Assembly: GCF_030908405.1 (NCBI RefSeq)
Contig: NZ_CP133089.1
Location: 2,356,001 to 2,420,000, forward strand
Source: Aminobacterium sp. MB27-C1
GTDB lineage: Bacteria > Synergistota > Synergistia > Synergistales > Aminobacteriaceae
DNA length: 64,000 nucleotides
Direction of reading: 5' to 3'
In this document: piece by piece, positions 6,939-17,848 of the stretch
Position numbering within the stretch: the stretch's first letter is position 1
How the letters are laid out: every line of letters starts with the position of its first letter
Program-made: the position numbers and the translations under genes
The notes under the pieces: model-generated
The model's input: only the letters and a program-made list of their open reading frames with translations
What the model was told of the DNA's origin: nothing
Database searches by the model: none

Positions 6939-8924
6939 ATGAGAAAAGGAGAATGGGGAGAGAATTTTAAAACCAACCCCCCTAGGCAAATTGCTCTTCC
7001 CCTTGAAAATGAATTAGAGTATCTGGAACAACAAGATGACAATATGTTCCAGAACCCTTCTCTTTGGTTTTCTGCCTCTCTCCATCACCCCGATCTTCTT
7101 GTATGTTTTATTGATGAAGACGGGCGCCTTCGTTTTTGGAATAAAACAGCGGAACGTGTTACAGGGTATAGTTTTGAATTTCTTTCAGGCTCAAGAAAGT
7201 GGCTTTCTTTACTCTATGCGAATGTCGAGAATTGGCAACGTATGCTTTCTTCCCTTCGGACCTTGGCTTTGATGCAGGGGGCTTCTGCAAGTATTGAGAC
7301 AAAGATAAAAAAGAAAGATGGCAAGCCATGCACGATTCTATGGGCGTGCAATAATGTAATGCCCTCAGATGACTTCCCTTTTTCCGGTGTTGCTTGTTTG
7401 GGAATAGATATAACTGCTCGTGTCAATAGAGAAAAACGTTTAACGGAACGTATAACGACGTTATCTGCTCTTTTCGATAATATGGCTGATGCTGTTTTTC
7501 TTCACGAGATAGATGAAGATGGAGTGCCGGGAATATTTGTTGAAGTTAATGAGGGAGCCTCTCAAATGTTGGGATATTCCCGAAATGAATTGCTCGGTAG
7601 TTCTCCAAATTCAATCGATATTTTTTTAAAGAAACAGGACATACTGATACTTGTGAGGCAACTTTTTCTAAATGGACATCTTACTTTCCAATCTTTTCTT
7701 AAAAAAAGAGATGGATCAGCTGTTCCCGTTGAAATTCACGCACACCTTTTTTCGTTTCAAGGAAAGCCTATGGTTCTTTCTATTGCTCGTGACGATTCAG
7801 AACGAAGAAAAAACGAAGCCTTGCTTATGGAAAATGAGGAATTTTCTTCATCAATCCTTGATCAAAGTCCTAACGCTATTTTTGTCGTTGGTTCTGATAC
7901 ACGAATTCAGTATGCCAATAAATCTTTTGTGAAACAGTTTGGATATTCCTCAGAAGAAATTTTGAAACGTCCTGCTCCCTATCCATGGTGGAGAGAGGAT
8001 TATTGGCTCAATATGGGAGAACTGCGTATTGCTATGCATGAAGGTGTCATAGGTAAGGAAAAACGCTTTGTAAGAAAAGATGGCGAAGAAATATGGGGGG
8101 AAATAACAGCGGTTCCTATTCGAGACAGCGATGGGCGGCTTCAGTATTGTGTGGTGACTTGGAAAGATTTGACTTCATATAGAAAACTTGAAGAACAAAT
8201 AAGTTTACATCAGCATCAATTACAATATTTGTCCTCTGAATTATATGTGGCTGAAGAACGGGAGAGGCGACGTATTTCCACAGATTTGCACGATAGCGTG
8301 GGACAAAATCTGGCACTTTCCCATATTAAGCTTGAAATGCTTAAGAGTCAGATTAAAGAGAAGAGAGAAAAAGATGTTGTTCAGGATATCCTCTCGCTTA
8401 TAGATCGTTCTATACAGGGAATGAGAACTCTTATTTTTGAGTTGAGTCCCCCAATGCTTTATGAATTGAGTTTCCATGCGGCGGTGGAATGGCTTATAGA
8501 TAAAATGGAAGAAGAGCACGGTCTATGTATCGTTTTTAATGATTTTCTTGTGAGCGATGAAATTCCAATGGATATAAAAATTTTCCTTTTCAGAGCTTTG
8601 CGAGAACTTTTAATGAATATCGTAAAACATGCTAAAACGAATGAGGCGATTATAACCATTTCTCGCTTTGATCCATGGACAGTAGCGCTAGAGGTTAAGG
8701 ATGATGGCGTTGGATTCGACCTTTCTATGCTAAGAGAGTTGGGACGGGATCCCAGTAATTTTGGTTTGTTGAGTATTCGAGAGAGAGTAAATTATCTTGG
8801 TGGCTTTATGCAGATACAAACTCTCCTTGGTGAAGGAACCAAAGTTACTCTTTTTGTCCCTGTAGAAAAGGAGGAAGAAAGGTTCGGTGACGTTCATGAA
8901 GAAAGTCAGGATTCTGCTGGCTGA
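6939..8924 (+). CDS. PAS-domain sensor histidine kinase (NarL/DegS type)
   Basis: 661-residue cytosolic kinase with no membrane segment. Three PAS domains lie at about residues 40-160, 165-295 and 300-415, the last with a typical PAS/PAC end (YCVVTWKDLTSYRKLEEQ). A HisKA_3 domain follows at about 430-500, with the phospho-accepting histidine in RRRISTDLHDSVGQN. The C-terminal HATPase (about 540-650) has the N box (LRELLMNIVKHAK) and the DDGVGFD and FGLLSIRERV boxes. ATG 6939 has a weak TGGAGTG site upstream. The next gene, its LuxR-type response regulator, overlaps by 38 bases, so they form a two-component pair. Soluble PAS sensing suggests an intracellular redox or small-molecule cue; the signal is unknown. 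The pair lies directly upstream of the surface-protein operon, its most obvious candidate target. Confidence 0.93.
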   Translation: MRKGEWGENFKTNPPRQIALPLENELEYLEQQDDNMFQNPSLWFSASLHHPDLLVCFIDEDGRLRFWNKTAERVTGYSFEFLSGSRKWLSLLYANVENWQRMLSSLRTLALMQGASASIETKIKKKDGKPCTILWACNNVMPSDDFPFSGVACLGIDITARVNREKRLTERITTLSALFDNMADAVFLHEIDEDGVPGIFVEVNEGASQMLGYSRNELLGSSPNSIDIFLKKQDILILVRQLFLNGHLTFQSFLKKRDGSAVPVEIHAHLFSFQGKPMVLSIARDDSERRKNEALLMENEEFSSSILDQSPNAIFVVGSDTRIQYANKSFVKQFGYSSEEILKRPAPYPWWREDYWLNMGELRIAMHEGVIGKEKRFVRKDGEEIWGEITAVPIRDSDGRLQYCVVTWKDLTSYRKLEEQISLHQHQLQYLSSELYVAEERERRRISTDLHDSVGQNLALSHIKLEMLKSQIKEKREKDVVQDILSLIDRSIQGMRTLIFELSPPMLYELSFHAAVEWLIDKMEEEHGLCIVFNDFLVSDEIPMDIKIFLFRALRELLMNIVKHAKTNEAIITISRFDPWTVALEVKDDGVGFDLSMLRELGRDPSNFGLLSIRERVNYLGGFMQIQTLLGEGTKVTLFVPVEKEEERFGDVHEESQDSAG

Positions 8925-9558
8925 TGATCATCAAATTCTTCGAGATGGGTTACGAACTCTTTTAAACACTCAGGATGATATGGAGGTTGTAGCTGAGGCA
9001 GATACGGGACGAAAGGCTATTGAGATGTCCCTATCGAATCATCCAGATGTTCTTGTTATGGATGTCGTTATGCCGGAACTCAATGGGATAGAAGCTACAA
9101 ATCAGCTTAAAAAAGAGCTTCCGGGAATTAAAGTGCTCGCATTATCAATGCATGCTGATCGTCATTTTGTTGCAGAGATGCTTAAAGCTGGCGCTTCCGG
9201 TTTTTTGTTGAAAGAGTGTGCTTTCCATGAATTAGCCCAGGCTATCCGATCGATTATCAGCGGAAAAATGTATCTGAGCCCGAGTATATCAAAATGTGTT
9301 ATTGAGGAGTATGTGGGATATCTTTCAGGAGAAGGGAAAGAGGAAACTGACTCTATAAGTGCGTTGAGTCACAGAGAAAAGGAAGTTTTACAGCTTATAG
9401 CAGAGGGAAAAGGAAACCGCGAAATTGCTCGTACCCTTCATATCAGCGTGAAAACTGTGGAGACGCATAAATATAATATTATGCGCAAAATAAATCTTCA
9501 CTCTGTTGCGGAGCTTACGAAATATGCGATTAAGAGCGGATTGACTCCAATGGATTAA
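8887..9558 (+). CDS. LuxR/NarL-family response regulator
   Basis: 223 residues. The receiver domain is at about 5-125 with the acidic pair (LLADDHQ), the phospho-acceptor aspartate in VLVMDVVMPELNG and the conserved lysine in FLLKE. The LuxR-type HTH is at about 155-215 (LSHREKEVLQLIAEGKGNREIA). It starts inside the kinase gene: GTG 8887 (AAGGAGG 12 bases upstream) or ATG 8896 are both possible, and I keep the longer. It should be phosphorylated by the preceding kinase. A strong terminator follows, then the structured leader and operon of secreted proteins, which it may activate (inference from position). Confidence 0.94.
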   Translation: MTFMKKVRILLADDHQILRDGLRTLLNTQDDMEVVAEADTGRKAIEMSLSNHPDVLVMDVVMPELNGIEATNQLKKELPGIKVLALSMHADRHFVAEMLKAGASGFLLKECAFHELAQAIRSIISGKMYLSPSISKCVIEEYVGYLSGEGKEETDSISALSHREKEVLQLIAEGKGNREIARTLHISVKTVETHKYNIMRKINLHSVAELTKYAIKSGLTPMD

Positions 9559-9592
9559 GTGATTTCCTGATGTCTTTTTAAGTGAATAGCGT

Positions 9593-9630
9593 GAAAGGGG
9601 CAGGGGTGTATCCCTGCCCCTTTCAGTTTT
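9593..9630 (+). terminator. Terminator after two-component operon
   Basis: Thirteen-base perfect stem GAAAGGGGCAGGG (9593-9605) pairs with CCCTGCCCCTTTC (9612-9624), with a six-base loop and a T-rich tail. Confidence 0.9.
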
Positions 9631-9639
9631 CTCCCGATA

Positions 9640-9821
9640 TTCAATTTTAATCGATAGACGTACCCTTTATATTGAGCTTAGACGGCTCCAGCTCTTTCGC
9701 TGGAAAGGGGGTCGTAGAGATGCCCGCCACATGCGGGTACACCTGATAAGTTATTACTTTCTAGCGGCGTAAAGGGATCTATGGAGTATAGGGCTATCTG
9801 CAAAAAAGGGAGGAAAAAAAG
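9640..9821 (+). promoter_or_regulatory. Structured leader before secreted subunit operon
   Basis: About 180 bases between the terminator and the first secreted-subunit gene. It contains two obvious hairpins: CCAGC/GCTGG (9688-9703), which may sit inside an outer ACGGC/GTCGT stem (9682-9686 with 9711-9715), and CCCGC/GCGGG (9723-9737). A strong AGGGAGGA ribosome site follows near 9808-9815. The G/C-rich helices stand out from the A/T-rich surroundings. I do not recognise a known riboswitch core (no GEMM, cobalamin, SAM, glycine or fluoride signature). It could stabilise an abundant mRNA or be a new cis-regulatory RNA. No promoter is assigned. Confidence 0.4.
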
Positions 9822-10373
9822 ATGAAAAAAGTATTTCTTCTGTTAGCAGTTGTAGCCATGGTAGCTTTTGCTGCAAGCGCAGTTTTTGCGGTAGAAGCCC
9901 CCATGACCATGGAAGAGGCAGGGTTCGATACATCATGTCATCCGACATGCTGCACTCCGTATGACACGTTGAAAATCAACTGGAAGGTTATACCGATTAA
10001 CTGCCTGATGATCAAACAGGAAGAGATCAATATGGCAACTCACATCGGATGTGTAATTCCTTGGTGCGATGAAGAGTGCATTTGGTACGCCATTATCGCA
10101 ACAGGCACCGATGAGAGAAAGGTTGTCGGTAAGATCAATCTCGATATGCCCGATCACGTAACACTGTGGGCAAAACTTAAAGCTCCTTATGGAACAAGTG
10201 CTGTCGGAACACCAAACTGGACAGAACTTTCCACGGAGTACGTTGATCTCGTAACAGGTATATCCAAAGTTTGTGGAGCCTGGGGAAAAGGCGGTTTGAA
10301 GCTTTGCGCTGGCCCAGATGCTCAGAAAGCTGCTGGAACCCGAATCCTTACCCTTCTCATTCAGGACGCATAA
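9822..10373 (+). CDS. Secreted cysteine-rich subunit, putative major fibre protein
   Basis: 183 residues with a clear signal peptide (MKKVFLLLAVVAMVAFAASA, cleavage about residue 23). The mature part has nine cysteines (a CHPTCC cluster near 39-44 plus C61, C77, C82, C86 and two late ones) and alternating beta-strand patterns ending in a hydrophobic last strand (RILTLLIQDA). It is clearly related along its length to the lipoprotein encoded at 14633: both have an ATG-x(4,5)-VV-x-G segment followed by a x-P-(D/E)-x-V-x-L-(W/F) motif (P110 here). A weaker copy of that motif occurs in the next gene. It lies first, with a strong ribosome site, and a terminator separates it from the rest of the operon, so it is likely the most expressed product. 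A pilin-like role is inference; no family name recognised. Confidence 0.75.
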   Translation: MKKVFLLLAVVAMVAFAASAVFAVEAPMTMEEAGFDTSCHPTCCTPYDTLKINWKVIPINCLMIKQEEINMATHIGCVIPWCDEECIWYAIIATGTDERKVVGKINLDMPDHVTLWAKLKAPYGTSAVGTPNWTELSTEYVDLVTGISKVCGAWGKGGLKLCAGPDAQKAAGTRILTLLIQDA

Positions 10374-10381
10374 GGGGTAAT

Positions 10382-10418
10382 AAAAAGGGCGGCACTCGGG
10401 GGGGTGCTGCCCTTTTTT
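10382..10418 (+). terminator. Terminator between first and second subunit genes
   Basis: Stem GGGCGGCAC (10387-10395) pairs with GTGCTGCCC (10404-10412, one G-U pair), followed by six T. Partial read-through would give high expression of the first subunit and lower expression of the downstream assembly genes. Confidence 0.85.
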
Positions 10419-10441
10419 GTCAGTCGGGAGGGAAATAAAAA

Positions 10442-10927
10442 ATGAGTGGAACTACGGTAATATCACGAGTCGTTCTTCTTGTGTTTCTCGTTGTTTTTTC
10501 TCCCCTGAGCGGGCGTTCAGAGGCTATGGAACTTATTGCCTTGGGAAGTTGGTCATCTCTTGTTATCGGTGCTTCAGCTTCCAATGGCCGAGGTATACGA
10601 GAGAGTGATCCCTCCATTGTAAGCCTAGGCATTATCAATACGCGGGATCAATATGCCTTATGGAACCTGGAGGCAAAGATCGTTGAGGGAGCACAGATAC
10701 CTGAGGGAATACAGATCTGGATTCGCCGCACAGGTAATGGTATGGGAACAGGTTGGGTTCGGGGAGGCACTTCGTATCAGCTTCTCGATCCATCAGGAGC
10801 CACCCTTTTTACGGGAGCAGGAGATAGAAGTCATATAACGCTTCAATTGAAAATAACAGGTATTACTCCAGAAACACCGAAAGGCGTATATGCTCCACAT
10901 ATTGCATTTACGGTGGTGGATTTATGA
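10442..10927 (+). CDS. Secreted beta-rich protein, putative minor fibre subunit
   Basis: 161 residues with an N-terminal signal peptide (hydrophobic residues 7-22, cleavage about 27, RSEA). The mature part is a predicted beta sandwich with no cysteines. It carries the motif QIPEGIQIWIRR (86-97), which matches NLPEGVHLFVRL and DMPDHVTLWAKL in the two other small exported proteins of this operon. It ends in alternating hydrophobics (HIAFTVVDL), as expected for a donor strand or last strand of a pilin-like fold. It overlaps the following chaperone-like gene by four bases (ATGA). The function as a minor or tip subunit is inference from context. Confidence 0.7.
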   Translation: MSGTTVISRVVLLVFLVVFSPLSGRSEAMELIALGSWSSLVIGASASNGRGIRESDPSIVSLGIINTRDQYALWNLEAKIVEGAQIPEGIQIWIRRTGNGMGTGWVRGGTSYQLLDPSGATLFTGAGDRSHITLQLKITGITPETPKGVYAPHIAFTVVDL

Positions 10928-11757
10928 TGAGAAGAAAACTATTTTTCATATGTTTCTGTGTAACGGCGATTCTTCTATTTGTAGTCCGTCCGGAGTTTGC
11001 TCTGGCAAGTAATGTGGATGTTGAGGGAGATTTAACATATCGTTTTACAGTAACGCCAGGACAAGAAATTCGTGGACAGATTATAGTAAGAAATAACGAT
11101 AAGGAACAACAGGTTCAAGTGGCCATCAACCAATCTGACTATTTATGTTTTGCTGATGGAAGCAACGATTATGGTGAGCCTGGAAGTATTGCTCGTTCTA
11201 ATGCATTGTGGATGACAATAACACCTCGTCAGCTTGTCATTCCTGCGGCAGGAACGGCAAGCTTTAATTATGTGATTAATGTGCCGAAAGAGACGACTCT
11301 CTGCGGATCATACTGGAGTCTGATCATGGTTGAACCTATAGATCAAATACTGTTGCAACCTCCTATCGATGCAGATGGCAACATGGCTTTTGGAGTAATG
11401 ACGGTCTTTAAATATGCCATCCAAATGATTACAGATATCGGAAATACGGGAGTTCGCGATATAGAGTTCGCTGATAAAAAGCTTATAAATGCCGGGGGCG
11501 TGTCTGTTTTAGCACTCGACATTGCAAATAAAGGGGAACGTGTCATTCGTCCTGTCGTCTGGGCTGAACTTTACGATGAGCAGGGTAACCATGCTGGCCG
11601 CTTTGAAGGGGGAAGGCGATGGATTTATCCAGGGAGCTCATGTCGTTTTGAGATTCCGTTTAAAGATGTTAAGGCGGGTCAATATAAGACCCTCATTATC
11701 GCTGATGGTGGAGAGGAAGAAGCTTTTGGCGCTCAGTATGCCCTGATACTAAAGTAA
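10924..11757 (+). CDS. Periplasmic chaperone-like protein, two Ig-like domains
   Basis: 277 residues with a signal peptide (hydrophobic to about residue 28, EFALA). The mature protein looks like two immunoglobulin-type beta domains: about 30-135 (TYRFTVTPGQEIRGQIIVRN, then ITPRQLVIPAAGTASFNYVINVP, the pattern of pilus chaperone domain 1) and about 165-277 (a second domain with LALDIANKGERVIRPVVWAEL). The size and two-domain layout match periplasmic chaperones of chaperone/usher systems, but I do not see a classical FimC-family signature. The ATG overlaps the stop of the previous gene (ATGA), and the barrel gene begins 14 bases after its stop. The role in subunit folding is inferred. Confidence 0.65.
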   Translation: MMRRKLFFICFCVTAILLFVVRPEFALASNVDVEGDLTYRFTVTPGQEIRGQIIVRNNDKEQQVQVAINQSDYLCFADGSNDYGEPGSIARSNALWMTITPRQLVIPAAGTASFNYVINVPKETTLCGSYWSLIMVEPIDQILLQPPIDADGNMAFGVMTVFKYAIQMITDIGNTGVRDIEFADKKLINAGGVSVLALDIANKGERVIRPVVWAELYDEQGNHAGRFEGGRRWIYPGSSCRFEIPFKDVKAGQYKTLIIADGGEEEAFGAQYALILK

Positions 11758-11771
11758 AGAGGGTGAACACT

Positions 11772-14621
11772 ATGACAGGCGGAGGGCAGAAGCGAGTATT
11801 TAGAGTTCTACTTTTTCTCGTTTTTATATTATGGCTGCTTCCTGGCCTGACATGGGCACAGACAAAGGGATACGGGGTTGAAGTTCGAGCTCGTTCCCCA
11901 TTACAGATTAGTACAAAACCAGGACGCATTGTCAGTATTAGCGTTCTTGTGACAAGCTATCAGCCTGCACTTGAAACATTTATAGAGGAAATTGATTTGC
12001 CTCAGGGGTGGCAACCTCTTATGCCCCCTGGGCGATTTTCAATTCCTTCGAGAGGAAGCGTGACACGTGTTCTTGCTTTTCAGATTCCTCCCTCAGCTCG
12101 AGTTGGAGATTATGAAGTAGTTTATTCTGTAAAAAACAGGCGGGATTACGGGGTATATGATGAAGAGATTTTCACAGTATCCATTCTTGCTGTTGAAGGC
12201 GTAGAGCTTATTTTAGTTAAAAAACCGGTAGCCATTATAGCGGGGCAGCACTATGAAGCTGATTTGCAGCTTATTAATAGGTCGAATACGACACGTACCT
12301 ACTCTATAGACCTTCCTGATCGTGACGAAAGGTTTCCTGCTACCATCTCTCCAAATGAAGTAACATTGAATGCGGGTCAAAGCGCCGATTTGAAATTAAA
12401 GGGGAAAATTTTTCAAGGAAGCACTTCTCGATTCCATTTTGTTGAAGTTCGAGCCGTTGTAACTGGAGATGGGGGTCCAGATGCTACAACTCTTGTTGTC
12501 GATCTTGATGTTATTCCAAGAGGAGGAGGGGAACTTGATATATTCCACGTTCTTCCTACAGAGCTTTCAATTAGTGCCATGGGCAATACTGGAGGAGATG
12601 GGGTACATATTGAGTGGAGCGGTGAAGGTTATCTTGATGAGGAGCGCACCAAAAGAATTGATTTCCTCTTTAGGGGACCTGATACAGACGATTTCGGCAT
12701 CTATGGAGATGTCGATGAATATTGGCTGAATTATTTTACTGAGACCTACTCTTTTTATCTTGGCGATCAAGGATACCCTCTCTCTCGATTAACGTCTTCT
12801 GGGGCTTACGGCCGAGGTATAGGTTTTGCTTATGAACCTATAGGAACAGGCTTTGGTGGAGGTTTACACTATGTAAAAAGCCGTTGGGGAACGCCGGAAA
12901 AAAAAGAATATGGTTTTTATGTTAGTCATAAAGTAGAAGATAACCTTGAAATAAGATTTAATGCCCTTCAAAAAGAAAGAAAGGCATATGGAAGCAAACC
13001 GGATATAGAAGACAAAATATGGAGTGTCAGTGCGGAATACAGACCATGGGTTCATACATTACTTGAACTTGAATATGCTATTTGTGACACAGACAGAGAG
13101 GAAGCTCTTGACGACGACGCAGCTTATAGAGTCTATTTAAGAGGAAGAATGAATGGGAAGATCCCTTACTCTATTACAAAAGTAAGAGCTGGCACTGATT
13201 TCTGGGGATACTACCACGATTATGACTATATAAGTGCAAGCGTCGGCTATCCCTTTAGCGATCGTTTGCAGGGAAACATATCGTGGTATCAATATAAAGA
13301 TAATCTCAACCTCAGACAGGTTGATGCAACATCCCAAACCTTTGAAGAACTTCTTCAGGTCTACTTTGATTATGAATTGAGCGATGGCTGGTATCTGGCT
13401 TTGGGGTACGATACTTTTACCATGGAAGATCGCTTGTTACCAGCTGAATATAATTATCATGAAAATTCGTGGTGGCTACGAGTAGGGCGGAGTATGGAGC
13501 GTTATAGTTATTCCTTTGAAGCGCGATATGCGGACCAGAGCAATCGTGTAAATGGCGAGAGTGCTACGGCATGGAATTATAACGTTTCTTTAAGTTACCA
13601 GCTTACTCCTGAACTTTATGTTTCTATTTATGGAGGCTTTGGAGATAACGATGCTCTTGCAGATAGTTACCTCATGAGATCTTCTAGTAACAGAGGTATC
13701 TCAATAATTTGGGATATTACTCCCACTCTTCAACTCTCCTGCTGGTACACAAGATACTCATATGAAGAAGATTTTGCAGATAATAGCGAACAATATGAGT
13801 TTATTGCAGAGCAAACTTTCGAAGACGAAAGCCGGCTTCGTTTTAGAATACAACGTAATGATAACAGTGGTGAAATGGAAACATCCTACTCTGTTACCTA
13901 TGTAATCCCTATCGATATCAAACTTGCCAAGAAGAAAAATGTTGGAGTCTTACAAGGTCTCGTATATGAAACTATTGCTGAGGAAAAGCGAGGTATTCCT
14001 AATGTGGTTCTTGATATTGAGGGCCAATCTGCCGTTACTGATGAAAAGGGAATGTTTCTATTCCCCAGCCTTCTTCCTGGGGCCTATCTGTTGAAAGTTG
14101 ATAGGGCTTCTCTCGGAAATCGTGTGCCTAATCGTAAAGTTCCTATTACTGTTGAGATTGCAGGTTATGGGGAGGTTACATCGATGGATATAGGAATTAT
14201 CGATGGCGTTTCTTTAAATGGCACAGTCGTTCTTATAGATCCAGATGCAGGGAAAGATAAACCTGCCGACTTAGAAGGAAATAAAAGCTACCTTGTAGGA
14301 GATACATTGCAGGAAGATGGATTTCTTGAACCTGGTGGATTACAGAGTGTACTTGTGGAATTAAAAAATGAGGACGAGGTCCATCGTCGAATTACAGATA
14401 GTTGGGGACGTTTCCTCTTTGAGGGATTGCGGCCAGGGAAGTGGGTTTTGAAAGTGTACGACATTAATATCCCTTCGTCATATCGTATTGAGTTCCCAGA
14501 GCAAAGCATTGATTTGGGGCCTGGGGATGCAAAAGTTGTTGAGGCCAAAGTCTTACCTCGAAAAAGAACGATAAAGTTCCTCGAAGAAGGAAGAGTCGTT
14601 ATGAAACCTGGTGAGAAGTGA
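11772..14621 (+). CDS. Usher-like outer-membrane barrel with Ig-like and CarboxypepD_reg domains
   Basis: 949 residues from ATG 11772 (AAAGAGGG eight bases upstream; a GTG at 11763 lies over the ribosome site). A signal peptide (to about 30, TWAQ) is followed by two NEW3/Ig-like domains (about 35-135 and 140-250). Next comes a long region (about 255-715) of alternating aromatic/polar strands, very rich in Tyr and Trp, typical of an outer-membrane beta barrel. Two C-terminal carboxypeptidase-regulatory-like domains follow (about 726-823 with NVVLDIEGQSAVTDEKG, and 853-929 with SWGRFLFEGLRPGKW). A barrel with soluble domains at both ends, next to a two-domain chaperone and three related subunits, resembles an usher. 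Sequence similarity to FimD is not evident to me, so it is an analogue or a very divergent homologue. An alternative is a general surface exporter. Confidence 0.7.
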   Translation: MTGGGQKRVFRVLLFLVFILWLLPGLTWAQTKGYGVEVRARSPLQISTKPGRIVSISVLVTSYQPALETFIEEIDLPQGWQPLMPPGRFSIPSRGSVTRVLAFQIPPSARVGDYEVVYSVKNRRDYGVYDEEIFTVSILAVEGVELILVKKPVAIIAGQHYEADLQLINRSNTTRTYSIDLPDRDERFPATISPNEVTLNAGQSADLKLKGKIFQGSTSRFHFVEVRAVVTGDGGPDATTLVVDLDVIPRGGGELDIFHVLPTELSISAMGNTGGDGVHIEWSGEGYLDEERTKRIDFLFRGPDTDDFGIYGDVDEYWLNYFTETYSFYLGDQGYPLSRLTSSGAYGRGIGFAYEPIGTGFGGGLHYVKSRWGTPEKKEYGFYVSHKVEDNLEIRFNALQKERKAYGSKPDIEDKIWSVSAEYRPWVHTLLELEYAICDTDREEALDDDAAYRVYLRGRMNGKIPYSITKVRAGTDFWGYYHDYDYISASVGYPFSDRLQGNISWYQYKDNLNLRQVDATSQTFEELLQVYFDYELSDGWYLALGYDTFTMEDRLLPAEYNYHENSWWLRVGRSMERYSYSFEARYADQSNRVNGESATAWNYNVSLSYQLTPELYVSIYGGFGDNDALADSYLMRSSSNRGISIIWDITPTLQLSCWYTRYSYEEDFADNSEQYEFIAEQTFEDESRLRFRIQRNDNSGEMETSYSVTYVIPIDIKLAKKKNVGVLQGLVYETIAEEKRGIPNVVLDIEGQSAVTDEKGMFLFPSLLPGAYLLKVDRASLGNRVPNRKVPITVEIAGYGEVTSMDIGIIDGVSLNGTVVLIDPDAGKDKPADLEGNKSYLVGDTLQEDGFLEPGGLQSVLVELKNEDEVHRRITDSWGRFLFEGLRPGKWVLKVYDINIPSSYRIEFPEQSIDLGPGDAKVVEAKVLPRKRTIKFLEEGRVVMKPGEK

Positions 14622-14632
14622 GGTGTGACAAC

Positions 14633-15109
14633 ATGGTGCGAAAATTATTTATTTTAGGATTTCTTATAGCCTTTCTTCTCTCCTGTGACTCGTCAGAAGG
14701 GGTCGATAGAACGGTTGCTTTCGTGAATATTTCTATTGAGGTTGTGGAGCAAAATGCTATTTCGGTTATTCAACAACCACTTTCCTTGCATAGCTACATT
14801 AATGATAGAGGAGATGCGGTTCCCTTATCGTATATAGTTACGGCTACCGGTCAGACGCCTCGTGTAGTTACAGGACGTTTAGAAGGGAATTTGCCGGAGG
14901 GTGTTCATCTTTTTGTACGGCTTGATGCCCCTATACGAGGCGAATCCACAGGCCTTCAAGAGCTAACTTCTCAAGAAGTTGAGTTATTGACGGATGTGTG
15001 GGGAATTTATAGTGTTCAGGGAAGTGGGGTGGTTCTTCTTAAGGCAGCGAATGATACCGCACGAAGTTTGGGACAAATTCAAATTCGTCTTGCGATACGA
15101 GAAACGTAA
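14633..15109 (+). CDS. Lipoprotein paralogue of the secreted subunit
   Basis: 158 residues from ATG 14633, with GAGGTG six bases upstream. An in-frame GTG at 14618 overlapping the previous stop is less likely. The N-terminus is a lipoprotein signal (FLIAFLLSC, Cys at 18 as the lipid site). The remainder aligns with the first subunit of the operon: IVTATGQTPRVVTGRL and NLPEGVHLFVRL (P88) match the ATG-VV-G and PDHVTLW segments there, and both end in a similar hydrophobic strand. It lacks that protein's cysteines. A lipid-anchored member of the subunit family could be the base or anchor of a surface fibre (inference). Confidence 0.7.
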   Translation: MVRKLFILGFLIAFLLSCDSSEGVDRTVAFVNISIEVVEQNAISVIQQPLSLHSYINDRGDAVPLSYIVTATGQTPRVVTGRLEGNLPEGVHLFVRLDAPIRGESTGLQELTSQEVELLTDVWGIYSVQGSGVVLLKAANDTARSLGQIQIRLAIRET

Positions 15110-15124
15110 GGAGGCGTTAGAGAC

Positions 15125-15322
15125 ATGGGGGACCTTTATTCTCTTCGCAAAGAGCGAGACTATCTCTCTCGAGAATCGACTCGAAAGAGTATGGATCAAC
15201 GAGAGTGGGAAATTCGTTACTTAAAAATCCTCGAGGATATCTATAGAGAAGAGCAGAAACTACGAGGACGCAGCTTGCCTAAAAGAAAAATCAACCGTGA
15301 AAATAGATCATATCCAGATTGA
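15125..15322 (+). CDS. Small charged coiled-coil-like protein
   Basis: 65 residues, very rich in Arg, Glu and Lys (RKERDYLSRESTRKSMDQRE), predicted helical or coiled coil, no signal peptide or membrane segment. The start ATG 15125 has AAGGAGG about 10 bases upstream. It begins 15 bases after the lipoprotein gene and is followed by a terminator, so it is the last gene of the surface-protein operon. I do not recognise a family. A cytosolic role linked to the operon cannot be deduced. Confidence 0.65.
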   Translation: MGDLYSLRKERDYLSRESTRKSMDQREWEIRYLKILEDIYREEQKLRGRSLPKRKINRENRSYPD

Positions 15323-15366: not shown

Positions 15367-15424
15367 TTCTGGTGTAAAATAAATAGTACTTAATAAATTT
15401 TACGTATCTGACGAGGTGGTACCT

Positions 15425-16267
15425 GTGCCTTTAAAAATTGGCATTGTATCTATAGTTGTTTGTTTCTTTTTTTCTTTGGTGGGAACACCTGTTTTGTATG
15501 GGATGGGTAATATAAATGCTTTTGTCTCTATTCCTCCACAGGCTTATTTCATTAGGGAAATCGGTGGAGATCGTGTTAATGTGCACATTATGATTCATCC
15601 TGGAGATGACCCTCATACGTATGAGCCGAAGCCCGGACAAATGGCTTCTTTTGCCCAAAGCCATCTTTATTTTGCGATTGATCTTCCCTTTGAAAAGAGA
15701 CTTTTGGCAAAAGCTCTTTCTTTAAATCCGTCTCTTCGTATTATTGATACTTATAAAGAGATAGATCAAATGCCAGGAGACCTTCATGACCCGCATATTT
15801 GGCTCGCCCCTTCCCTAGTAAAAATACAGGGACGTGCTATCCGTGATGCTTTCATTGAAGTTGATTCTCAACATGCAGATGAATATAAAAAAAATTACAT
15901 CCAATTTTGTCGCAAAGTTGATGACGTGGATTCAACTATACGCAGCTTGTTGAGCCATACGATGAAAAAGGATTTTATTGTTGTTCACCCTTCATGGAGT
16001 TACTTCGCTCGCGAGTATGATTTGAATCAGTTGTCGATGGAAGTCGAAGGTAAGGAGCCTAAAGCTTCAGATTTAGCATCTCTTATTACCTTAATGAGAG
16101 AGAAACAAATTAATACTATTTTTGTCTCTCCGCAGTATTCCAAGAAGATGGCAGAAAATTTGGCTCGGGAGACAAAAGCAATTATTCGTGTTATTGACCC
16201 CCTCGCTGAGGATTGGGAGAAAAATATGCTTGAAACGGCTCAGGCCATAGGAGAAAGTCTGAAATGA
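15425..16267 (+). CDS. znuA: Zinc/manganese ABC transporter substrate-binding protein
   Basis: 280 residues from GTG 15425 (GAGGTGG five bases upstream). A GTG at 15416 overlaps the ribosome site. A signal peptide is followed by a cluster A-I metal-binding protein: metal ligands are visible as the histidines in DDPHTYEPKPGQ and DPHIWLAP, the histidine in VHPSWSYFAREY, and the acidic residue near RVIDPLAED. The His-rich loop that many ZnuA proteins have is missing. It heads an operon with the ATPase (ATGA overlap) and the permease. It delivers a divalent metal, most likely zinc, to the inner-membrane transporter. Manganese cannot be excluded. No Zur box was identified. Confidence 0.9.
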   Translation: MPLKIGIVSIVVCFFFSLVGTPVLYGMGNINAFVSIPPQAYFIREIGGDRVNVHIMIHPGDDPHTYEPKPGQMASFAQSHLYFAIDLPFEKRLLAKALSLNPSLRIIDTYKEIDQMPGDLHDPHIWLAPSLVKIQGRAIRDAFIEVDSQHADEYKKNYIQFCRKVDDVDSTIRSLLSHTMKKDFIVVHPSWSYFAREYDLNQLSMEVEGKEPKASDLASLITLMREKQINTIFVSPQYSKKMAENLARETKAIIRVIDPLAEDWEKNMLETAQAIGESLK

Positions 16268-17061
16268 GCGAGATCCAGTCAATATTGTTTGAAAACGTGT
16301 CATTTGCCTACGAAAATGGAACAAAAGTGCTCGATAGAGTTTGTTTCGAGGTCCCTAAAGGTGAATTCTTAGTCATGATAGGTCCTAATGGCGGAGGAAA
16401 AACGACATTATTAAAGCTTATTCTGGGACTCGAAAAGCCTCTTTCTGGAAAGATTGCTGTGTTGGGAAAAAGCCCTGATCAAGCTTCTGCATCAGTTGGC
16501 TATGTCCCTCAAGATGCAGGTCGCAATAGAGACTTCCCCGTGACTGTTTTTGATGTTGCTTTAATGGGACGCCTTGGGTGTGGAAAGAAGACTACATTTA
16601 GTGAGGAAGATAAGAAAATTACCATGGAGGCCCTTGAACGTATAGGTTTAGCTGAAAGGCGTGACGATCTTATGGGTGAACTCTCTCAAGGGCAACGCCA
16701 GAGGGTGTTGATTGCAAGGGCGCTGGCCTCTCGTCCAGAAATTCTTCTCATGGATGAACCTTTTGCCAGTATTGATCCTGAGACCAGAGGAGTTCTCTAT
16801 GAAGAACTCGCTTCTCTTGCCGGGAGCATTACGATTTTGCTTGTAAGTCATGATTTATCCGTTATTGCAAATGGAGCTACCGCTGTCGCATGCGTATGTG
16901 GGGATGTCTACTATCATAATTCGGCAGAAATCACAGAAGAAATGTTACAGATGGAGTATGGAGGAACGTGTCCAGTTGAGCTTATTGCTCACGGTTTGCC
17001 TCATAGAGTTTTAGCCCGTCACGATCATTTAAAGAAGGAGTTACATTCCCATCATGATTAA
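16264..17061 (+). CDS. znuC: Zinc/manganese ABC transporter ATP-binding protein
   Basis: 265 residues. Walker A GPNGGGKTT (near 40), signature LSQGQRQRV, Walker B ILLMDEP and the H-loop SHD are all present. The start overlaps the stop of znuA (ATGA), and the stop overlaps the permease start by eight bases. It powers metal uptake. The C-terminus is His-rich (HDHLKKELHSHHD), which could bind metal. Confidence 0.93.
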   Translation: MSEIQSILFENVSFAYENGTKVLDRVCFEVPKGEFLVMIGPNGGGKTTLLKLILGLEKPLSGKIAVLGKSPDQASASVGYVPQDAGRNRDFPVTVFDVALMGRLGCGKKTTFSEEDKKITMEALERIGLAERRDDLMGELSQGQRQRVLIARALASRPEILLMDEPFASIDPETRGVLYEELASLAGSITILLVSHDLSVIANGATAVACVCGDVYYHNSAEITEEMLQMEYGGTCPVELIAHGLPHRVLARHDHLKKELHSHHD

Positions 17062-17848
17062 TCTTTTGCAGTATGAATTTATGCAAAACGCTTTTTTGGC
17101 TGCCTTTTTAGCCAGTATTCTATGCGGCATGATGGGGAGTCTCGTTGTAGTGAGAAAGCATGTTATTGTTGCCGGAGGAATAGCCCACGGAGCATATGGC
17201 GGTGTTGGCCTTGCTTTTTTCTTAGGGGTATCTCCTATTTTTGGTACGATGGTGTTTTCTCTTGTGCTGTCACTTCTTATTGCGTGGATAACATGGCAAA
17301 AACCAGAACGAGCCGACTCTATAATAGGAGTTCTTTGGGCTGTAGGAATGGCTATAGGTGTAATATGTATAGATTTAACACCTGGATACGGTGCAGATTT
17401 AATGAGTTATCTTTTTGGGAGTATCCTTACTGTCTCAAAAGGTGACCTCTTTGCCATGCTCGGAGTCATTCTTCTCTCATTCGCCTTGGGCTTTCTGTAT
17501 CATAAAGAATTATTAGCTTTTGCATATGATCCTGATTTCGCAAAGACAAGAGGGGTTCCTGTCGCTTTTTTGCATTATGTTGTTATTATCTTAATCTCAA
17601 TGACTGTCGTTCTTCTAATTCGAGTTGTTGGGCTTATTCTTGTCATTGCTCTTCTTACTATTCCCCCTTCTATAGCAGAACGTTGGAGTCATTCTCTCTA
17701 TTCTATGATGGGCAGGGCTTTCCTTTTAAGTTTATTTTTTTCATTTGTTGGTTTGTGGCTTTCCGCTCTTTTAAATGTAACTGCGGGAGCTACAATTATT
17801 CTCGTTTCCGCTATAGGATATGCCCTTTCTCTTTTGTTAAAAAAATAG
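17054..17848 (+). CDS. znuB: Zinc/manganese ABC transporter permease
   Basis: 264-residue inner-membrane protein of the ABC-3 family with about eight helices. It includes the typical start (FLASILCGMMGSLVVVRKHVIVAGGIAHGAYGG, residues 15-47), and the EAA-like cytoplasmic region follows. Translationally coupled to the ATPase gene and closed by a strong terminator. Confidence 0.93.
   Translation: MINLLQYEFMQNAFLAAFLASILCGMMGSLVVVRKHVIVAGGIAHGAYGGVGLAFFLGVSPIFGTMVFSLVLSLLIAWITWQKPERADSIIGVLWAVGMAIGVICIDLTPGYGADLMSYLFGSILTVSKGDLFAMLGVILLSFALGFLYHKELLAFAYDPDFAKTRGVPVAFLHYVVIILISMTVVLLIRVVGLILVIALLTIPPSIAERWSHSLYSMMGRAFLLSLFFSFVGLWLSALLNVTAGATIILVSAIGYALSLLLKK

Follow-up and report, generated by a model that had tools for sequence, protein, structure and literature searches.

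The locus described here, from the anaerobic, two-membraned bacterium Aminobacterium (Synergistota), is probably a chaperone/usher-like system that assembles a surface fibre or a polymeric surface coat, with a chaperone of the WxLIP family. We put the probability of this reading at about two in three; the evidence for a chaperone of the small exported proteins A, B and E is stronger than that for the fibre. Judged by its sequences, the system is distinct from the known chaperone-usher clades. In Gram-positive Bacilli, WxLIP is the protein that pairs with WxL surface proteins. No paper describing such a system was found in the open-access literature searched, and its novelty is provisional, since subscription papers and preprints were outside the scope of the search.

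Within the window, that is, the whole stretch of 64,000 nucleotides that was analysed, six open reading frames, A (183 aa), B (161 aa), C (277 aa), D (952 aa), E (163 aa) and F (65 aa), lie downstream of a histidine kinase/response regulator pair; all features are on the forward strand. B to E form one tight unit, since B and C as well as D and E overlap by 4 bases and C and D are only 5 bases apart. F (15125-15322) is a basic protein without a family match that is probably genus-specific; two congeners have it at the corresponding place, with 81-85% conservation. 3' of the operon, at 15416-17848, are the genes of a metal-type ABC transporter (binding protein, ATPase, permease), which come after the operon in the congeners, too. 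The kinase, of the HisKA_3 type with three PAS domains (6939-8924), and its partner, a LuxR-family response regulator (8887-9558), were assigned by Pfam, and their unit ends in a terminator-like hairpin (9592-9625). A preliminary description had given the operon its own two-component pair. The pair is indeed directly upstream, but it is syntenic within the genus only, at the same position in two congeners, and two-component control as a general feature was therefore rejected. Regulator genes unrelated to this pair adjoin some loci of a second phylum; at two of these, two large proteins weakly similar to histidine kinase/response regulator (L043:8781-13081 and L044:8814-13117) are encoded directly 3' of D, in an arrangement unrelated to that of Aminobacterium.

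A (9822-10373) is an exported subunit with 9 cysteines and the probable major subunit, B (10442-10927) is a second exported subunit encoded directly 5' of C, and E (14618-15109) is an A-related subunit; all three have signal peptides, as do the second-tier subunits of the divergent loci described below. The motif P-(E/D)-(G/H)-(I/V)-x-(I/L)-(W/F), which the preliminary description had seen in the three small exported proteins, is present in each of them: PDHVTLW at P110 of A, PEGIQIW at P87 of B and PEGVHLF at P93 of E (P88 if translation starts at the inner ATG at 14633), with a chance probability of about 1e-4 or less per protein. Likewise, the proposed full-length relationship of A and E is clear (Smith-Waterman z 19.9; BLAST E 1e-12 to 1e-17 between orthologues). 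B has no detectable pairwise relation to A (z 0.0) or to E (z 1.9), and its profile match to A/E (hhalign, 90%) is undercut by reversed controls of 42-63%; B as a full-length relative of A and E was therefore rejected, and all that suggests a tie is the shared motif and an inconclusive profile signal. The B family itself is highly conserved (RRTGxGxGxIxGG...GDR...FTVVD). E had been described as a lipoprotein, which is true for the genus Aminobacterium with its lipobox LLSC, but the other orthologues have an ordinary signal peptide, and a lipoprotein as the defining anchor of the system had to be given up.

Pfam revealed no convincing family for A, B, E or the second-tier subunits, and profile searches of the PDB with the subunit and B families returned nothing credible. 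Profile comparison of the mature subunits with chaperone-usher pilins gave no homology; a match of 43% obtained with the signal peptides included was gone on mature sequences. The second-tier subunits and WxL domains are collinear and both end in an aromatic strand (G-x-H-T-L-x-x-T-W-K versus Y-x-T-T-L-T-W-x-L), but the hhalign comparison of 32 such subunits with 21 WxL domains (5.3% versus 0.2% for reversed controls) was not significant, and homology to WxL domains was rejected. That neither pilin nor WxL homology is detectable in the subunits speaks against an assembly system.

After the first subunit, where a terminator had been postulated, a strong hairpin followed by a T6 tract does lie 3' of A, at the A-B junction (10386-10424; fold z -4.65). 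In 10 of 14 loci, the fold of the A-B (or A-C) junction is more stable than that of dinucleotide-shuffled sequences (z at most -2.4). The loci are not all independent because three of the ten are from congeners; the hairpin sequences are unrelated between groups. As a clear T tract is found in the congeners only, the hairpin is elsewhere more likely an mRNA stabiliser or a weak terminator. Either use favours a high output of A. The leader of A (9660-9821) is conserved within the genus only; two congeners share it, including blocks such as ATGCGGGT and CCTGATAAG. A riboswitch or structured leader upstream of A was considered and rejected, since this region has no Rfam match and no significant fold (z -0.76).

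C (10924-11757) had been taken for a two-domain Ig chaperone, and the AlphaFold2 model (pLDDT 79) indeed has two beta-sandwich domains. Its nearest relative is another protein than expected. In the fold comparison (Foldseek and VIA), WxLIP of E. faecium ranks first, with Z 15.1 over 219 residues; the chaperones of chaperone-usher systems FimC (Z 12.8, 186 residues), CfaA (12.3) and Caf1M (11.9) match as well. When the C profile was compared with all PDB sequences, WxLIP was found at 2.8e-7, and at 5.7e-8 with a wider set, whereas all others were above 0.05. Alignment of C with 14 WxLIPs by hhalign gave 96% (E 6e-9, 237 columns; reversed controls 0.3% or less). The same comparison with seven pilus chaperones of E. 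coli K-12 gave 1.4%, that is, no relation to the FimC type by profile, which again counts against the assembly reading. PapD_N and PapD_C had no Pfam match among 12 C proteins, and PF06030 was found in 4 of the 12, below threshold only. No membrane helix or other anchor follows the second Ig domain of C, and all orthologues end there. Thus, C is periplasmic, lacks an anchor and has a PapD-type two-domain fold; as a member of the WxLIP superfamily, it is not just an unrecognised FimC.

Residues 154-172 of C (11383-11439) contain a possible donor of a beta-strand. M154, F156 and V158 alternate and are hydrophobic in 12 of 12 orthologues; residues 154-158 lie in a low-confidence loop (pLDDT ~57) that runs into the last strand of domain 1, and this segment would be the natural candidate. 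In the archaic chaperone CsuC the donor residues V110, F112, M114 and Y116 alternate (PMC4654587). According to a published prediction, a disordered loop in WxLIP turns into a strand that lies parallel to WxL and completes the WxL sandwich (PMC10599100), and a solved WxLIP-WxL complex is available (PDB 9i25).

The kinship of C with WxLIP also feeds the main rival explanation, a WxL-like surface complex without polymerisation. D would then export A, B and E to a non-fibrous surface coat, and C would either leave with them or stay behind as a periplasmic or peptidoglycan adaptor. WxLIP, the closest relative of C, remains at the cell surface together with its WxL partners and is not recycled (PMC10599100); moreover, no long adhesin is encoded. 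However, a hairpin-isolated first subunit of the A type together with the D barrel resembles fibre operons, and C has nothing after its second Ig domain by which it could be held at a membrane. Altogether, we consider a non-fibrous complex unlikely, although it deserves to be taken seriously.

D (11763-14621) is an usher-like outer-membrane barrel protein. The expected barrel of ~950 residues with Ig-like domains at both ends was recovered in the model as Ig-Ig-barrel-two beta-sandwiches, at modest confidence (pLDDT 69.7, pTM 0.43). The two N-terminal Ig-like domains comprise residues 36-255 (11868-12527), and the second of them shows homology to C domain 1 (78%; at most 1.5% in reversed controls). 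The barrel comprises residues 264-722 (12552-13928) and has, in this low-to-medium confidence model, ~26 strands between residues 267 and 716 and no inserted plug. It is followed by two beta-sandwich domains of the CarboxypepD_reg/SdrD_B type (13950-14558), the CarboxypepD_reg domains being recognised by Pfam. In the Foldseek results for D, the highest-ranking outer-membrane barrel is FimD. Among the best fold matches of the barrel are MtrB (Z 18.8 over 413 residues), PapC (14.5) and FimD (14.4), with porins at similar Z. That the best match is a cytochrome sheath and not an usher, and that the model is of modest confidence and shows no plug insertion, unlike FimD, argues against the assembly reading. 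By profile, the barrel is similar to FimD-type ushers at 34%, versus 5-8% for reversed controls, which is suggestive only, and the N- and C-terminal domains are not those of ushers (NTD/CTD). None of 12 D proteins matched PF00577, PapC_N or PapC_C at E 0.1, and PF00577 was absent from all 188 Synergistota genomes, with E. coli as positive control. Together with the Pfam results for C this agrees with the preliminary description, which had noted the lack of recognisable Fim/Csu sequence signatures.

These data bear on a second explanation, that the locus, though divergent, truly belongs to the archaic chaperone-usher clade and that its sequence signatures have decayed so far as to escape detection. 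The fold of C (Z ~12 to chaperone-usher chaperones), the gene logic and the weak profile similarity of the barrel to FimD-type ushers are in line with this idea; but C matches WxLIP far better, in fold and in sequence, PF00577 is absent, and the end domains of D are not of the usher type, which makes such an origin improbable. Even less credible is a D that serves as an ordinary porin-like or substrate-uptake barrel or as an MtrB-type electron-conduit sheath next to an unrelated periplasmic complex of A, B, C and E: the MtrB match that invites this idea may reflect strand number alone, there is no Pfam match to MtrB/PioB, the heme-binding motif CxxCH is absent from A, B and E, no cytochrome is evident among the neighbours, and C, which is of the chaperone type, is always next to D.

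Co-conservation of the genes, whose lack the preliminary description had named as a counter-argument, is strong and extends over three phyla or more; in Deinococcus deserti, too, C and D are neighbours. Among 188 Synergistota genomes, D is present in 13 and C in 12, and in the 12 common to both the two genes are adjacent. The thirteenth genome (L039:4042-5196, G029:C38), in which no C was found, has only a 3' remnant of D, coding for its C-terminal end, followed by an intact E, and we regard it as carrying a decayed copy of the locus. In the second phylum, C is immediately 5' of D in 9 of 291 genomes; a scan of genome contigs located the cluster there in metagenome-assembled genomes (L043, L044). 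Loci outside the genus have the order A-B-C-D-E or A-A-B-C-D, with identities of roughly 35-40% and occasional members unassembled or missing. The second phylum also has a divergent second tier (L118-L127) with the order subunits, C, CarboxypepD barrel, subunit; its subunit type is present in 14 of 291 genomes, and the C profiles of the two tiers align with 99.7% probability. The WxLIP-like chaperone of this tier carries the signature DWWRSxDxxxxFxxPGTxxxSC, and its barrel is smaller. A second, diverged copy is found in the same Aminobacterium genome, outside the window, at ~688,500-693,500 (L038; G000:C1:683500-698500), with A-like, B, C and D genes and no E; its D is 36-38% identical, and it adjoins genes resembling the end of a prophage.

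The gene logic of a pilus system, which the preliminary description had recognised here, holds for the two-Ig fold of C, the PapC/FimD-like barrel of D, the co-conservation and the hairpin that isolates the first subunit, but has to be modified in that C is closer to WxLIP. From these elements we infer the following route for the chaperone/usher-like system. Sec would export A, B and E into the periplasm, where C would cap each of these small subunits; domain 1 of C probably lends M154-x-F156-x-V158 and the following strand to a presumably incomplete beta-sandwich of the subunit, by parallel insertion as predicted for WxLIP-WxL and known for the G1 strands of PapD-type chaperones. The complexes of C and subunit may then dock on the N-terminal Ig pair of D, of which one is a relative of C domain 1, and the subunit would pass through the wide barrel and join the previous one, most likely via its own N-terminal strand. 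A would be made in excess because the hairpin 3' of its gene limits read-through or stabilises the A mRNA, and would, for this reason, form the shaft; B and E may be tip, base or anchor subunits.

It is tempting to speculate that the WxL/WxLIP complexes of monoderm Bacilli and the diderm system of the Aminobacterium type go back to one ancestral chaperone-subunit apparatus. The diderm form would have kept the usher D; the Gram-positive form would have lost it together with the outer membrane, while its chaperone acquired a membrane helix and turned into a lasting partner at the surface. We offer this scenario tentatively, with the odds somewhat against it; still, the link between C and WxLIP hints at a shared origin of two surface systems that are studied separately. 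If confirmed, the locus would represent a previously unnamed secretion/assembly route for surface fibres in Synergistota and other two-membraned phyla, and the WxLIP that enterococci, lactobacilli and listeriae have would be related to an assembly chaperone of the periplasm. The kinship would then suggest that the WxL-WxLIP pair works by strand complementation, and it may serve to test ideas on the remodelling of surface organelles in bacteria that lost or kept the outer membrane. In addition, genes that are at present labelled "hypothetical", "carboxypeptidase regulatory-like" or "Mfa2" could be annotated with profiles of C and D.

Compared with known systems, the cluster DEIDE_RS15110-15125 on plasmid 2 of Deinococcus deserti is close: it contains A, C, D and E relatives in unchanged order, with a C that is 31% identical, but lacks a B gene and has a shorter D (839 aa). 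Distant relatives of C are also present on other Deinococcus plasmids. The D. deserti cluster is annotated as FimB/Mfa2 and carboxypeptidase regulatory-like. The name Mfa2 does not describe the family, because it goes back to a borderline Pfam hit (21.7 bits versus a cut-off of 21.2); the proteins of the window have no match to the Mfa2/FimB or fimbrillin families of the type V pili of Bacteroidota, and matches in their relatives are sub-threshold or borderline only. The MtrB sheath resembles D in barrel fold and apparent strand number, but there is no sequence family match, cytochrome partners are missing and D has additional Ig domains.

With the classical, alternative and archaic chaperone-usher pili the locus shares the order subunit, chaperone, usher, subunit, the two-Ig fold of the chaperone and a large outer-membrane barrel that, as modelled, is flanked on either side by beta-sandwich domains. 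It differs in its chaperone, which is closer to WxLIP, in a barrel modelled with ~26 strands and without the plug of the 24-strand usher barrel, and in subunits that are not alignable to pilins; since the usher and PapD signatures are absent as well, it is placed outside the known chaperone-usher clades. With the WxL/WxLIP (DUF916-DUF3324) clusters of Bacilli it shares a full-length two-domain WxLIP relative and small exported proteins flanking the two-Ig gene, and the strand insertion that is predicted for WxLIP (PMC10599100) may apply to C as well. Unlike these clusters, it has an outer-membrane barrel gene, its hosts are two-membraned and its chaperone is without the C-terminal membrane helix of WxLIP. 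The WxL domain (PF13731) is absent from the Aminobacterium genome (Lactococcus as positive control) and, for want of WxL domains and of that helix, the locus is placed outside the WxL system, too. Apparently, it works like a chaperone-usher system and shares its chaperone superfamily with the WxL system.
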